This document shows, one piece after another, positions 8,335 through 14,268 of a stretch of 64,000 nucleotides of DNA. Where the stretch lies: contig OX335598.1 of NCBI GenBank assembly GCA_946893605.1, forward strand, positions 186,001-250,000, read 5' to 3'. This stretch comes from Candidatus Saccharimonadota bacterium. Its GTDB lineage: Bacteria; Patescibacteriota; Saccharimonadia; Saccharimonadales; Saccharimonadaceae. Position numbers and translations under genes: made by a program. Numbering within the stretch: the first letter of the stretch is position 1; every line of letters begins with the position of its first letter. The notes under the pieces are model-generated. The model did no database searches. It worked only from the letters and a program-made list of their open reading frames with translations, and was not told the DNA's origin.

Positions 8335-9026
8335 TTACGAGCGACCACTGAGGCGACCGAGCATTGCCATTGATCCGAGGGTGCGATTGACATCTGTTAT
8401 TTGGCGTGGCTCTTCTGGATTTTCTTTTTCCGCGTTGCCGTTAATCGCTCGTTCTATGTAGATGCGTGTTGCGTGTACAGCGAGCGGAAGCGAGGCGGCG
8501 AATGCTCCAGCTCCTAGTTTGCGTAGAAGTTTGGCGAGTTTTGGATTTTTATCCTGCTCGGCAACATGGGCGGCAATGTAAGATATCAAAGTAACTGTTT
8601 CTCCTGCCATGGCTAGTTTTCCTGATTTGGTCGGTCGAGTTTCAGCTTTCTTGTCACTACGTAAATTGGTAATTCCTGTAGCCCCAGCGTTTATCGAGTT
8701 TAGTAGCGCAACAATGCCAAGGACGCGCTTTGGCGCCAACCCTTTTTTATTCATTTCATAGAGGATTTTGCCATAACTATTTTGTCTGTTGTGGCATCTA
8801 AGGCTGCTCCAAAATTGCTGGTCTGCCCTGTCATACGTGCTACTTTGCCGTCCAAGACGTCAGCTAATCGCCCGACCGCGCATTCTGCCAACCCTTCAGC
8901 CGTATCGATTTTCTCAGATCCGTGTATCGCTAAAGTGGCGCCAGTCACGCTTATCAAATTAGGGATGGTAAAAACGTCTTTGGCGACTTTACGGGCGGTA
9001 GGAGATGTTTCTCGGGATTTTTTCAT
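8335..9026 (-). CDS. CDP-alcohol phosphatidyltransferase (one frame break)
   Basis: Two frames join into about 230 residues. The first contains the complete family signature with D59, G60, A63, R64, G73, D77 and D81, the metal- and CDP-binding residues. The rest has hydrophobic segments fitting a small integral membrane enzyme. Such enzymes build phospholipid head groups from CDP-diacylglycerol; PgsA-like glycerophosphate transfer is the usual guess but the substrate cannot be told. One A is missing in the T run 8766-8769; restoring it makes VMAKILYEMNKKG and links the second frame. Organisms of this group often import lipids, so a complete enzyme here is informative. Confidence 0.72.
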
Positions 9027-9064: not shown

Positions 9065-9933
9065 TTATCGTAATGTCCAGTTGTTCGCTCCGAGGGGTTT
9101 GATAACACCGTTGATTTCCAGCATAGTTAACGCCGTGGCGAAATCTGACGCGGATAATCCTGATTTTTGTTGATTTCGTCGCCGTCGCGCATCCCTTCTG
9201 AGATGAGCTTTATGATAATAGCCTCTTCAATCGTTGCGCTGGCCGCTAATTCTTGACCGTTGTCTTTTTGTAATTTCTCTGGCGCGATGATTGATAAAAC
9301 ATCGTCGGCGTCCGTCACCAAATACGCCCCTTGTTTTAATAAAGTATTACAACCCGCCGACAGTGGGCTGGTTATGTTTCCGGGAACTACAAACAAATCT
9401 CTTCCCTGATTAAGTGCGTGCGAGGCGGTGTTTAGTGTGCCGCTTCGCTCGGCGGCTTCGGTGATAATAATCCCATCAGCTAGCCCACTAACTAGTCGAT
9501 TGCGCTCCAAAAAACTCCAACGATTGACTATTTTATTATCGCCCTTCATCCATTCTGAAATGACCGCGCCGCCCCGCTCTATGATGCTCATGGCTAGTTG
9601 ATAATTGGTCCGCGGCGAAATATCCGGAAGTTCATTTGGGACGACCGCCACGACCGTTCCGCCAGCTTCAATCGCAGCTTTTTGGGCAATGCAATCCACA
9701 CCTAGCGCCAGCCCACTCACGATTACACATCCGGCTTTTGCCAGATCTGTTGCTAATCGCTCGGTCACTTCTTTTCCGTAGGCAGATGGCTTACGGGACC
9801 CGACGATTGATACGACTGGCGCATTTGTTTCTGGCAATTTTCCCATATAACATAAGCTTTTTGGTGGATTGGCAATATGTGCTAATCTCTGGGAGAAAAT
9901 ATGCTCATCTGGTGTAATTCTATTGATTTCCAT
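9065..9933 (-). CDS. dprA: DNA-processing protein DprA (one frame break)
   Basis: DprA binds incoming single-stranded DNA during natural transformation and loads RecA. The Rossmann-like domain shows VSIVGSRKPSAYG, VSGLALGVDCIAQ and NQGRDLFVVPG. The C-terminal winged helix is recovered by adding one A at the T run 9164-9168, which turns the tail into NKKSGLSASDFATALTML and moves the stop to 9065. Total about 289 residues. I chose the ATG at 9933 (MEINRITPDE); a GTG at 9960 is also in frame but overlaps the shared -35 palindrome. Divergent to the putative RNA at 9989. Confidence 0.85.
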
Positions 9934-9953: not shown

Positions 9954-9982
9954 TTGACACTTTGTCAAATGTTTGCTATAAT
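9954..9982 (+). promoter_or_regulatory. Consensus sigma-70 promoter driving the 9989-10299 RNA
   Basis: TTGACA (9954-9959), 17-nt spacer, TATAAT (9977-9982): a perfect match in both boxes. The -35 is half of the palindrome TTGACACTTTGTCAA, whose other half gives a TTGACA facing dprA, so both directions could be controlled at one site. Confidence 0.85.
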
Positions 9983-9988
9983 CAAGGA

Positions 9989-10299
9989 CGATTGGTTAAG
10001 TAATCATTAACCAAACGCACCTTATACCCCCTATTCTAACTATATGTTAGGTTGCGCGCAATGGCATTAAGTATTCTTACCCTCCACTTTTTGCGGTTCA
10101 ACGTTACGCGCATACTAACCCCTTTAACTGCCCTTTTTCAAAGGCGACCTCTGTTAAGGCGAGCACTAATTGGTGTTGATAATAGTCAGGCGCGGACTTT
10201 TGGAGTTTTAGTCGCGACGCTTCGCTGATACGGTAGCTCGGGTGGGTTGAAGGGTAAAAAAGCGTCAGGTGATGCCCACCCTTACCTGGCGCTTTTTTG
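9989..10299 (+). ncRNA. Putative structured non-coding RNA, about 310 nt, unknown family
   Basis: A perfect promoter begins and a strong terminator ends a segment without a credible reading frame. Visible stems: GGTTAA/TTAACC near the 5' end (9993-10011), CTAAC/GTTAG around 10038-10052, and a long-range pairing GGTTGCGCG with CGCGC...AACC around 10052-10117. I looked for hallmarks of RNase P RNA, tmRNA, SRP RNA and T-box leaders and found none. 6S RNA cannot be excluded by eye. It lies between dprA and a Fur-type gene, both on the other strand, so it is a stand-alone transcript rather than their leader. Confidence 0.6.
10261..10299 (+). terminator. Rho-independent terminator of the putative RNA
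   Basis: AGCGTCAGGT and ACCTGGCGCT form a 10-bp stem (one G-U) with a 12-nt loop, followed directly by six T residues. Confidence 0.9.
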
Positions 10300-10309
10300 T
10301 TGGGAAAAA

Positions 10310-10723
10310 TTATTTATTTTCTATAATATGTCGGCACTTTTCGCAAATACCTTCCAACTCAAAGTGGTGTTTTGTGACTATGAAATTATGTTTTTTACCG
10401 ATGAGATCTATGAGTTTTTCGAGTTCTTGCGATTGTATGGGTTCGGCATTTTGACAATTGATGCAGTAGAGATGGTGATGATGTGGTATAAAAGGTTCTG
10501 CTAACTCGTAATAGTTCTTCCAGCCAATAGTTATGGTGTTTATAATATTCAGATTATCGAACATCAGCAGTGTGCGGTAAATGCTGGCACGGTTAATGTT
10601 TTTGCAGTTTTTCGCAATATCGCCGACCGTAAGAGGCACATCTGAATTTCGCAGGATATCAAATACTTGCTGGCGTGGTTTTGTCAGACGAAGATTGTGG
10701 TGTTCAAATATTTCATTTAGCAT
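10310..10723 (-). CDS. Fur-family metal-responsive repressor
   Basis: A 137-residue protein of typical Fur/Zur/PerR length. Residues 1-75 are the winged helix (LTKPRQQVFDILRNSDVPLT and NRASIYRTLLMFD). The C-terminal domain has a His cluster HHHH (81-84) and two CxxC pairs, C87/C90 and C127/C130, the structural zinc site. It lies 47 nt after the permease gene on the same strand, so the regulator is probably encoded with its transport target. Whether it senses Zn, Fe or peroxide cannot be told. Its 3' end is close to the terminator of the opposing RNA. Confidence 0.88.
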   Translation of the reverse strand: MLNEIFEHHNLRLTKPRQQVFDILRNSDVPLTVGDIAKNCKNINRASIYRTLLMFDNLNIINTITIGWKNYYELAEPFIPHHHHLYCINCQNAEPIQSQELEKLIDLIGKKHNFIVTKHHFELEGICEKCRHIIENK

Positions 10724-10770: not shown

Positions 10771-12537
10771 TTACAGTCCGAGTAGTTCATAAGGATATTT
10801 GGGTTGGCTGATTTTTGTGATATGCGCGTCGGTTATGACGTATTCAGCTTGGCCATTAACGATTTTCTGCGACAATTTACCTTTGACGATTAGCCATGTT
10901 CCATCTGAGTAGTCTGTCGAAAAGTTTTTCTCGACCAGGATTTTCATAGGCACGCTGTCAACAGTGCAGCAACTTATAACGTATCTGGCAATATTGAAGT
11001 AATTATAGCCGTAGTTTTTTAACAGATCATTTGAAACGAAGCCAGTAATGGTAATATCTTTGCCGTTAAAATAAGCGGCCTCTTTGCAAGAATTTATAGC
11101 GGTTTTCCAGCGATTTATTGAGATTGTAGAAGAGTCTTCTTTTGGTTGAGGTGTTTCGCAACGACTTTCGGGCTCAATAATCGCAGGACTTTCTTTTTGC
11201 GCGAGACTGCTTGGAGAGAGTGGCTTTGGTGGCAATATATATCCGACTGATAATATAATTATTGCAAAATAAGATATCGGGGTAATTTTTTTCAAGCCAA
11301 TTCTAGATTTATCTTTTGCGGGTTTATTTTTTAATTGCAACATTATATCAATAAGCAAAAGTATAACGCCGATTACGCTAATTATGATCGCGAATGCGTG
11401 ATAGCGCGGATGTACGTAAAAGCCGAGTTGATCGCGCCAAGCTAATAGCAAAATATATACACAAACGACAATTCCGCCAATTGATTTTGCAAGGTTAGCG
11501 TACATATAAGTTAACCCCAGCCCGACAATTAGAGATAAGATGAACACAGTTAAGGTAATTGTTGCAATAAATTTCCAGCGAAAAGTTGTTTTTAATAGCG
11601 TAATCATTTTAATGTCTATCATCGGTCCGAATAGCAAGAAAGATAAAATTGAGCCTGTTGTGAAATTTCGCACGTAAGCCAGTACGAAGAATGCGTCGAT
11701 GCTGGAGCATATCGAGATGATGAAGCTTAGCGTGATCATGGATATGACTGATAAGAAAATGTCGCCGCCGACGGCGTTTATGATGAATCGCGGAACGAAG
11801 ATTTGTGTGGCGGCTGCGATGCTAGCACCTAAGACCAACATAGTAAATAATTGCCAGAATTCATTACGTGATGAGCTGAATAAGTTTGATAATTTTGAAC
11901 CGTGATTATGAGAGTGGCAAAGTGTTTCAAACTCTGGATTGATGATGGAATCTTCCTTAAAAAAGCTGACGATAAAAGCGGTTATTTGTACGATAACTAG
12001 CGCAAAAATAATTCGCCACCAAACCATTCGGGTGTCAAAACTGAAGGCGGTCATGGTTGAAATTATGGTTATCGGGTTTATGATTGGCGCGGCGAAAAGA
12101 AAGCTAATAACGTCGGCAGGTTTTAATCCATTTGCTATTAAGCTTCGCGCAATTGGCACGTTACCACATTCGCATACAGGTAAAATTAGCCCGATCATAG
12201 AGAGTGTAACTCGTCGAAGAAAGGTGTTTTTTGGTAACATTTTGAAGACATCTTTTGATGATAAAAAGTATCTGATAAACGCGGATATGATAATTCCTAA
12301 AATTAAGAATGGGACCGCCTCGACAATTACGCTTAGCGTCAGCGTGATGAAATCTTGTAATGACGGAAGTAATTTATTGCACCATTCTGCAAATTCTCCG
12401 GTTAATAACATAACGCCGAATCGTGAGCTGAATTGATAAATAGCAATTATAAGGACGCCAAAAAACACCCAACCGATCAATTCGCTGTTGGCTGATAAAA
12501 ACTTTTTTATGCGACCATCTGGCGATTTTTGTGCCAT
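10771..12537 (-). CDS. Permease fused to a TIGR03943-like domain, metal-associated
   Basis: 588 residues. The N-terminal half (about 20-330) is a DUF318/ArsP-like multi-span permease with the signature LPVCECGNVPIARS (Cys122, Cys124). The C-terminal half (about 340-588) has more membrane segments then an exported domain resembling TIGR03943 (YcgQ type), ending in a region about ion or ligand binding with ISCCTVDS. In Bacillus-type genomes the two parts are separate neighbouring genes; here they are one chain. Co-transcription with a Fur-family regulator suggests metal movement, an inference. TATAAT 7 nt before the ATG suggests a leaderless mRNA. Confidence 0.75.
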   Translation of the reverse strand: MAQKSPDGRIKKFLSANSELIGWVFFGVLIIAIYQFSSRFGVMLLTGEFAEWCNKLLPSLQDFITLTLSVIVEAVPFLILGIIISAFIRYFLSSKDVFKMLPKNTFLRRVTLSMIGLILPVCECGNVPIARSLIANGLKPADVISFLFAAPIINPITIISTMTAFSFDTRMVWWRIIFALVIVQITAFIVSFFKEDSIINPEFETLCHSHNHGSKLSNLFSSSRNEFWQLFTMLVLGASIAAATQIFVPRFIINAVGGDIFLSVISMITLSFIISICSSIDAFFVLAYVRNFTTGSILSFLLFGPMIDIKMITLLKTTFRWKFIATITLTVFILSLIVGLGLTYMYANLAKSIGGIVVCVYILLLAWRDQLGFYVHPRYHAFAIIISVIGVILLLIDIMLQLKNKPAKDKSRIGLKKITPISYFAIIILSVGYILPPKPLSPSSLAQKESPAIIEPESRCETPQPKEDSSTISINRWKTAINSCKEAAYFNGKDITITGFVSNDLLKNYGYNYFNIARYVISCCTVDSVPMKILVEKNFSTDYSDGTWLIVKGKLSQKIVNGQAEYVITDAHITKISQPKYPYELLGL

Positions 12538-13707: not shown

Positions 13708-14268
13708 TTAATATTTTATACTGAACGGCTCGATAGTTCCGTTAATAAATTTCTCGATCAAATTAATTGATTCGGGCAATATCCAGCTTTGGAGAATCTT
13801 TTGCTCGTCTGAGTTGAACTTTCCTAGGACAAAATCTACGTCACCAATTTGACGTCTAAGCAAATTATCTGTGCCAATACGAATATGCCAAAAGTCTGAT
13901 CCGACGTGAGAGTGGAGCGACTTTAAGCCATTACTGCCCGCGTCTCGACCGCCTTTGCGGGTTCGAATTTTGCCAAAGTCCAGCGCTGTGTCGTCGTGAA
14001 TAATTAGTAAATCATCCAATGTCAATTTGTAAAAATCTAAGATTGCTCGAGCGGAAATTCCGACTTCGTTATAAAATGTAGTTGGCTTAACTAGTAGGAT
14101 TTTTTCTCCAGAAATATTCAGCTCGGCAATATCGGCGGAAAACTTCGGCTTGTTTGAAAAGGTTTTTCCCTGTTCTGACGCAAATTTATCAATAGCCAAA
14201 AACCCAGCATTATGCCTCGTGTTTGTGTATTTTTCGCCTGGATTTCCCAATGCTAAGATGACTTTCAT
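13708..14268 (-). CDS. pth: Peptidyl-tRNA hydrolase
   Basis: 186 residues, normal for the family. It releases peptides from peptidyl-tRNA that drops off the ribosome. The N-terminus LALGNPGEKYTNTRHNAGF holds the conserved Asn and catalytic His; LLVKPTTFYNEVG and IIHDDTALDFGKIR are the other family blocks. A TATACT box ends 6 nt before the ATG, again leaderless. The divergent CobW-type gene starts 43 nt away. Confidence 0.95.
   Translation of the reverse strand: MKVILALGNPGEKYTNTRHNAGFLAIDKFASEQGKTFSNKPKFSADIAELNISGEKILLVKPTTFYNEVGISARAILDFYKLTLDDLLIIHDDTALDFGKIRTRKGGRDAGSNGLKSLHSHVGSDFWHIRIGTDNLLRRQIGDVDFVLGKFNSDEQKILQSWILPESINLIEKFINGTIEPFSIKY

Follow-up and report, generated by a model that had tools for sequence, protein, structure and literature searches.

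A structured non-coding RNA of roughly 310 nt is encoded on the plus strand at 9989-10299 of the window, i.e., the whole stretch of 64,000 nucleotides analysed here from a 702-kb Saccharibacteria genome, the start being deduced from the -10 element and the end from the T tract. The fold of this RNA is proved by compensatory base changes, and the RNA almost certainly represents a new family, unrelated to any described family tested by covariance model, the novelty lying in the family itself and not in a mode of action. It is most likely a stand-alone RNA, abundant and acting in trans, and probably a housekeeping RNA. Considered alone, action in trans appears likely, and the fuller proposal of a new structured non-coding RNA, trans-acting and ancestral in the class Saccharibacteria, is put forward with moderate confidence.

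The gene has the layout of an independent transcription unit, with a strong conserved promoter and a terminator of its own. The promoter TTGACA-17-TATAAT (9954-9982, plus strand), already pointed out in the initial annotation, was recovered by promoter scan with 12 out of 12 letters, namely a -35 TTGACA at 9954-9959 and a -10 TATAAT at 9977-9982, the latter being TG-extended (TGC). Since 87 of 88 homologues share the TTGAC of the -35, the 17-nt spacing and the TG extension of the -10, this promoter is not a chance match. As for the terminator, the hairpin (10255-10299, plus strand) and its T6 tract (10293-10298) stand as first described, with 17 out of 17 pairs changed on both sides, but the stem exceeds the 10 bp originally ascribed to it because A/U pairs lengthen it; a simple terminator scan overlooked this element because its loop limit was 8. 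Folding of 9989-10299 yields -100.9 kcal/mol (z = -3.45), and none of 100 shuffles is equally good. The segment had also been said to contain no plausible gene, which agrees with its conservation pattern, dominated by base-pair covariation and not by coding, and with an open frame that is not conserved; a 58-aa ORF (10052-10228) was rejected as a coding gene as it is disrupted by in-frame stops in the close relatives L002 and L004.

From the 5' end, the RNA (all features on the plus strand) begins with a hairpin of variable sequence, P1 (9989-10017), recognised from the fold and from comparison of homologues, followed by the conserved block ACCUUAUACCCCCUAUUCUAAC (10019-10040), which is exposed and mostly unpaired in the consensus. 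Helix P2 (10046-10119, with 10046-10064 pairing with 10101-10119) has 16 of its 17 pairs changed on both sides and encloses hairpin P3, the loop of which, CUUACCCUCCAC (10076-10087), contains CCUCC at 10081-10085. Helix P4 is made of the 5' strand CCCUUUAAC (10120-10128) and the 3' strand GUUGAAGGG (10246-10254), which covary (8 of 11 pairs changed on both sides), and encloses a variable middle domain (10131-10240). The window has the long form of this domain and many relatives a short form; the long form includes a hairpin (10190-10219) with the loop UUUUGGAGUUUU (10198-10209), which is a candidate to dock with the CCUCC loop. Further on, GGGUGGG (10240-10246) and the CCCACCC in the terminal loop are complementary in sequence, and the block GAUGCCCACCCUU (10271-10283), conserved in the homologue alignment, forms the top of the terminal hairpin. 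The exposed and most conserved parts are C-rich, namely the UACCCC strand, the CCUCC hairpin loop and the GCCCACC loop of the terminal hairpin.

Within this architecture, at 10036-10050 and 10115-10119 of the window, GUUAG can pair either with a 5' CUAAC, as a local hairpin, or with a 3' CUAAC, as part of P2. The long-range GUUAG/CUAAC helix is supported by lineages where GUUAG is changed, since the 3' partner is changed together with it (GUUGC/GCAAU, GUUGG/CCAAU); the 5' CUAAC can form the local alternative in many sequences, and in some relatives this local hairpin is lengthened by extra stems. The alternative pairing may represent a switch.

The several stems noticed at the outset turned out to belong to an elaborate fold with covarying helices. 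When 38 short-form sequences were aligned with MAFFT and then folded jointly, i.e., with an alignment not fitted to structure, compensatory changes were found in 35 of 56 pairs. A covariance model of 226 positions, named R1, was built from these 38 sequences and run over 100 loci: across 99 distinct sequences, 52 of the 56 helix pairs vary on both sides in compensatory fashion. In these 99 sequences, standard pairs occupy 96.9% of the cells against 82.1% in shuffles and 38-53% with partners slid, doubly changed cells number 680 against 133 in shuffles, and the covariation score reaches 0.428 against 0.167 for shuffled and 0.03-0.09 for slid controls. The R1 alignment is fitted to the structure, which favours structure, and the unfitted MAFFT alignment gave the same picture; base-pair covariation hence lies beyond the controls, as in a structured non-coding RNA. 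The changes are visible by eye in P4, where CCCUUUAAC/GUUGAAGGG is replaced by CCCUUUGUC/GACGAAGGG, GCCUUUAUC/GAUGAAGGC, CCCUUUCAC/GUGGAAGGG or CCCUCUAAC/GUUAGAGGG.

The initial annotation considered this RNA as an orphan, which is correct, and recommended comparing the dprA-fur interval between related genomes; this comparison revealed conservation on a scale it had underestimated, the family spanning the whole class. Within the same family, BLAST with the 376-base interval as query gave a match for 133 of 151 genomes, and for 100 of the 104 of good quality, the closest matching relative (G133) exhibiting 96% identity. Across the class, R1 matched 253 of 295 genomes, or 250 of 285 good ones, covering 98 of 128 genera, and in a phylum-wide draw of 380 genomes the 32 matches all fell inside the order; looser filters added further weak cases, including in another family of the class (f31). 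As R1 derives from one family only, its counts for distant families are to be read as minima. In genomes lacking a match, the dprA locus was searched over 60 kb without filters: six of seven class members then gave a divergent match (E of 6e-7 to 0.006), with a TTGAC promoter near the match in four of these six, and none of 10 dprA loci from outside the class gave a match at E < 1. Taken together, the R1 searches and the dprA-locus matches indicate that the RNA is retained by vertical descent throughout the class, outside of which it was not observed. The exact 3'-end pattern further occurs in at least 117 stretches of a collection of named genomes; among the matches listed, nearly all are labelled Candidatus Saccharibacteria, including the oral taxa HOT-352, HOT-348 and HOT-350, together with MAGs from rumen, sheep gut, horse gut and other sites, and we take the few other or vague labels to be misnamed MAGs. 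One core pattern, searched in viral contigs for a phage-borne copy, had no match there.

The Rfam/Infernal scan advised from the start gave no family at gathering score with Rfam 15 on the stretch; relaxing the limit to E = 10 brought up only irrelevant matches such as S_pombe_snR96 and Atu_C9, far below their cut-offs. The prior judgement from sequence features, that this is neither RNase P RNA, tmRNA, SRP RNA nor T-box, is borne out as no covariance-model match was obtained here. Neither the RNase P RNA model (RF00010) nor the tmRNA model (RF00023) matched the stretch, and both RNAs are encoded elsewhere in the genome, at G000:59527-59868 (265 bits) and G000:62640-63039 (90 bits), respectively. 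The raiA/ModT model (RF03072) had no match in the window or the homologues (E up to 10 or 1), nor in 21 genomes, a search where control genomes gave none either. The likeness to raiA is of type only, i.e., size (about 210-310 nt), an own promoter of housekeeping type, a complex fold that combines conserved unpaired nucleotides with candidate pseudoknots, and a competence gene as neighbour, comFC for raiA/ModT and dprA here. Unlike raiA/ModT, which is flanked by raiA and comFC and kept in thousands of species (PMC11706538, PMC11751092), the present RNA belongs to another phylum, is found beside dprA, topA and pth, and is kept in a whole class. No description of it was found in the open-access literature searched.

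To our knowledge, highly structured RNAs kept by whole bacterial classes are few, namely RNase P, tmRNA, SRP, 6S and, recently, raiA and OLE. Those that have been studied proved to serve basic functions of the cell. The Saccharibacteria, tiny parasites that live as obligate epibionts, have genomes near 0.7-1 Mb; an RNA of about 310 nt that they keep nearly everywhere, in one place and one orientation, is unlikely to be dispensable. Genetic tools exist for the group, Southlakia epibionticum having been studied by Tn-seq and natural transformation (PMC10633639), so that the function of the RNA is directly testable.

The C-rich loops offer a lead to this function. CCUCC is found in the P3 loop of 99 out of 100 homologues, where about 5 would be expected in shuffles, and in class-level relatives this loop reads CACCCUCCUUU, also forms like UCACCCUCCUUU, which we take to be close to the anti-Shine-Dalgarno 3' end of 16S rRNA. 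The same RNA that carries CCUCC carries GGAG loops in the long form or GAGGUGGGU in the short form; 20 of the 21 long-form sequences compared have a GGAG with which the CCUCC loop could form 4-6 bp, and GGUGGG faces the terminal loop in nearly all sequences. Such complementarity suggests docking inside the molecule, with GGAG contacting the CCUCC loop and GGUGGG the CCCACC loop. Covariation says little about these docking pairs because they hardly vary, and G-rich partners are also expected at some rate in shuffles. Exposed C-rich loops and internal G-rich elements being combined in one molecule, the RNA is proposed to act in trans and to have two states, docked and open. The RNA would be transcribed constitutively and be abundant, with the C-rich loops as its working surface; these would dock intramolecularly on the GGAG and GGUGGG elements and, once undocked, could bind a G-rich partner, e.g., a Shine-Dalgarno-like stretch of an mRNA, or alternatively a protein reading C-rich RNA. 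That it binds G-rich RNA, Shine-Dalgarno-like or other, is a plausible conjecture, and the specific mechanism by which CCUCC would recognise G-rich RNA is advanced only tentatively. More speculative still, and on the whole unlikely, is the complete scenario of a class-wide housekeeping RNA whose CCUCC hairpin loop would imitate the anti-Shine-Dalgarno end of 16S rRNA, a self-docked/open switch then controlling translation in a minimal-genome epibiont.

The same loops can be read differently, as parts of a compact, self-contained RNA in which the conserved loops would serve the tertiary fold of the molecule itself, i.e., a scaffold, a ribonucleoprotein or a ribozyme like raiA/ModT or OLE, without pairing to other RNAs. 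The elaborate fold, the conserved unpaired nucleotides and the candidate loop-loop contacts are consistent with this explanation, and raiA RNA, in which two pseudoknots go together with conserved unpaired nucleotides, follows the same logic (PMC11751092). Against it, CCUCC is invariant while its proposed internal partner shifts in place and form between the long and short types and went undetected in several divergent families. On this evidence, a purely self-contained RNA is possible though doubtful.

Conversely, CCUCC may look outwards, as in a small regulatory RNA pairing through this loop and its other C-rich parts with mRNAs at their ribosome binding sites, in the manner of the C-rich loops of staphylococcal small RNAs. 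Exposed C-rich motifs pairing with G-rich ribosome binding sites are known from the RsaE/RoxS-type RNAs of Gram-positive bacteria, which share such motifs with the present RNA but are shorter and less elaborately folded, and no Rfam match was obtained here. The identity of CCUCC with the anti-Shine-Dalgarno core, together with the resemblance of the class-level loop to the 16S rRNA 3' end, speaks for this explanation, whereas conservation reaches far beyond a seed sequence and Shine-Dalgarno sites are few in the window, with GGAGG upstream of only 5 of 52 genes examined. Many long ORFs of the window further resemble leaderless transcripts in that a TATAAT-like box precedes the ATG by about 6-12 bases. 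With few GGAGG sites and many leaderless-looking genes, a global Shine-Dalgarno role would be limited, and a small regulatory RNA of this kind seems rather unlikely.

Compared with these two readings, which like the preferred stand-alone, trans-acting RNA give weight to the loops, a third one relates to the genomic neighbourhood. The flanking genes named in the initial annotation were confirmed, namely dprA (9127-9933, minus strand; PF02481), divergent from the RNA, and a Fur-family gene (10310-10723, minus strand; PF01475), convergent with it in the lineage of the window. The latter adjoins an ArsP_1/DUF1980 permease gene (10771-12537, minus strand), possibly as a metal-regulated pair, and both separate the RNA from pth (peptidyl-tRNA hydrolase; 13708-14268, minus strand). 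The Fur-family neighbour is a local feature and pth the widespread downstream neighbour, convergent in 51 loci, the remaining loci including short or truncated ones. In 96 of 113 loci, dprA is the upstream, divergently oriented neighbour of the RNA, mostly at 24-139 bases, a placement which is very old. A cis-acting leader or riboswitch is argued against by the divergence from dprA, the convergent orientation of the downstream gene in the window and of pth elsewhere, and the terminator ahead of the next gene. The palindrome TTGACA-CTT-TGTCAA over the -35 (9954-9968) had led to the suggestion that the RNA and dprA are controlled together; this idea is weakly supported, since TTGACN5GTCAA is found in 62 of 88 homologues versus 87 of 88 for the promoter and the promoter scan revealed no minus-strand promoter for dprA at the palindrome. 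A role restricted to competence would equally be compatible with the promoter and with the position next to dprA. For a cis-acting or antisense element controlling dprA, hence competence, the short divergent spacing and the palindrome can be invoked, but the RNA is transcribed away from dprA without overlap, an elaborate fold would be needless, and the RNA persists where no adjoining dprA was seen and topA or pth is the neighbour (L158, L160, L165, L172 and L173), which makes such an element very unlikely. Of note, on the other side of dprA, a putative CDP-alcohol phosphatidyltransferase gene (8335-9026, minus strand; by the look of its sequence) is split by a change of frame near ATGAAATGAATAAAAAAGGG, either a real frameshift or a sequencing error, into two overlapping ORFs (91 and 139 aa), and is a single frame in relatives L003 and L005.

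Regarding SRP and 6S RNAs, the SRP RNA models (RF00169/RF01854) gave nothing over threshold in the genome of the window or in relatives: the small SRP RNA (RF00169) was found in none of 106 Patescibacteria genomes, including G000, with 11 of 14 control genomes positive, and the large one had no match in 13 genomes, so that in these Patescibacteria SRP RNA is either lost or diverged beyond the model. The 6S RNA model (RF00013) did not match the stretch, nor was any 6S RNA over threshold in 21 relatives; the present RNA resembles 6S as a stand-alone RNA of housekeeping type and differs from it in comprising several helices with a variable middle domain in place of one long bulged hairpin. That the RNA might be a highly diverged copy of either, as its near-universality, its similar size and these missing matches could suggest, is extremely unlikely, since its ends do not pair, it exhibits neither the SRP-type GGAA tetraloop hairpin nor the 6S-type hairpin, and the SRP models fail also in Patescibacteria where this RNA was not found. 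A sub-threshold match to 6S RNA (32 bits) is located at 1501-1654 of locus L031 (genome G152), where it adjoins the RNase P RNA gene.
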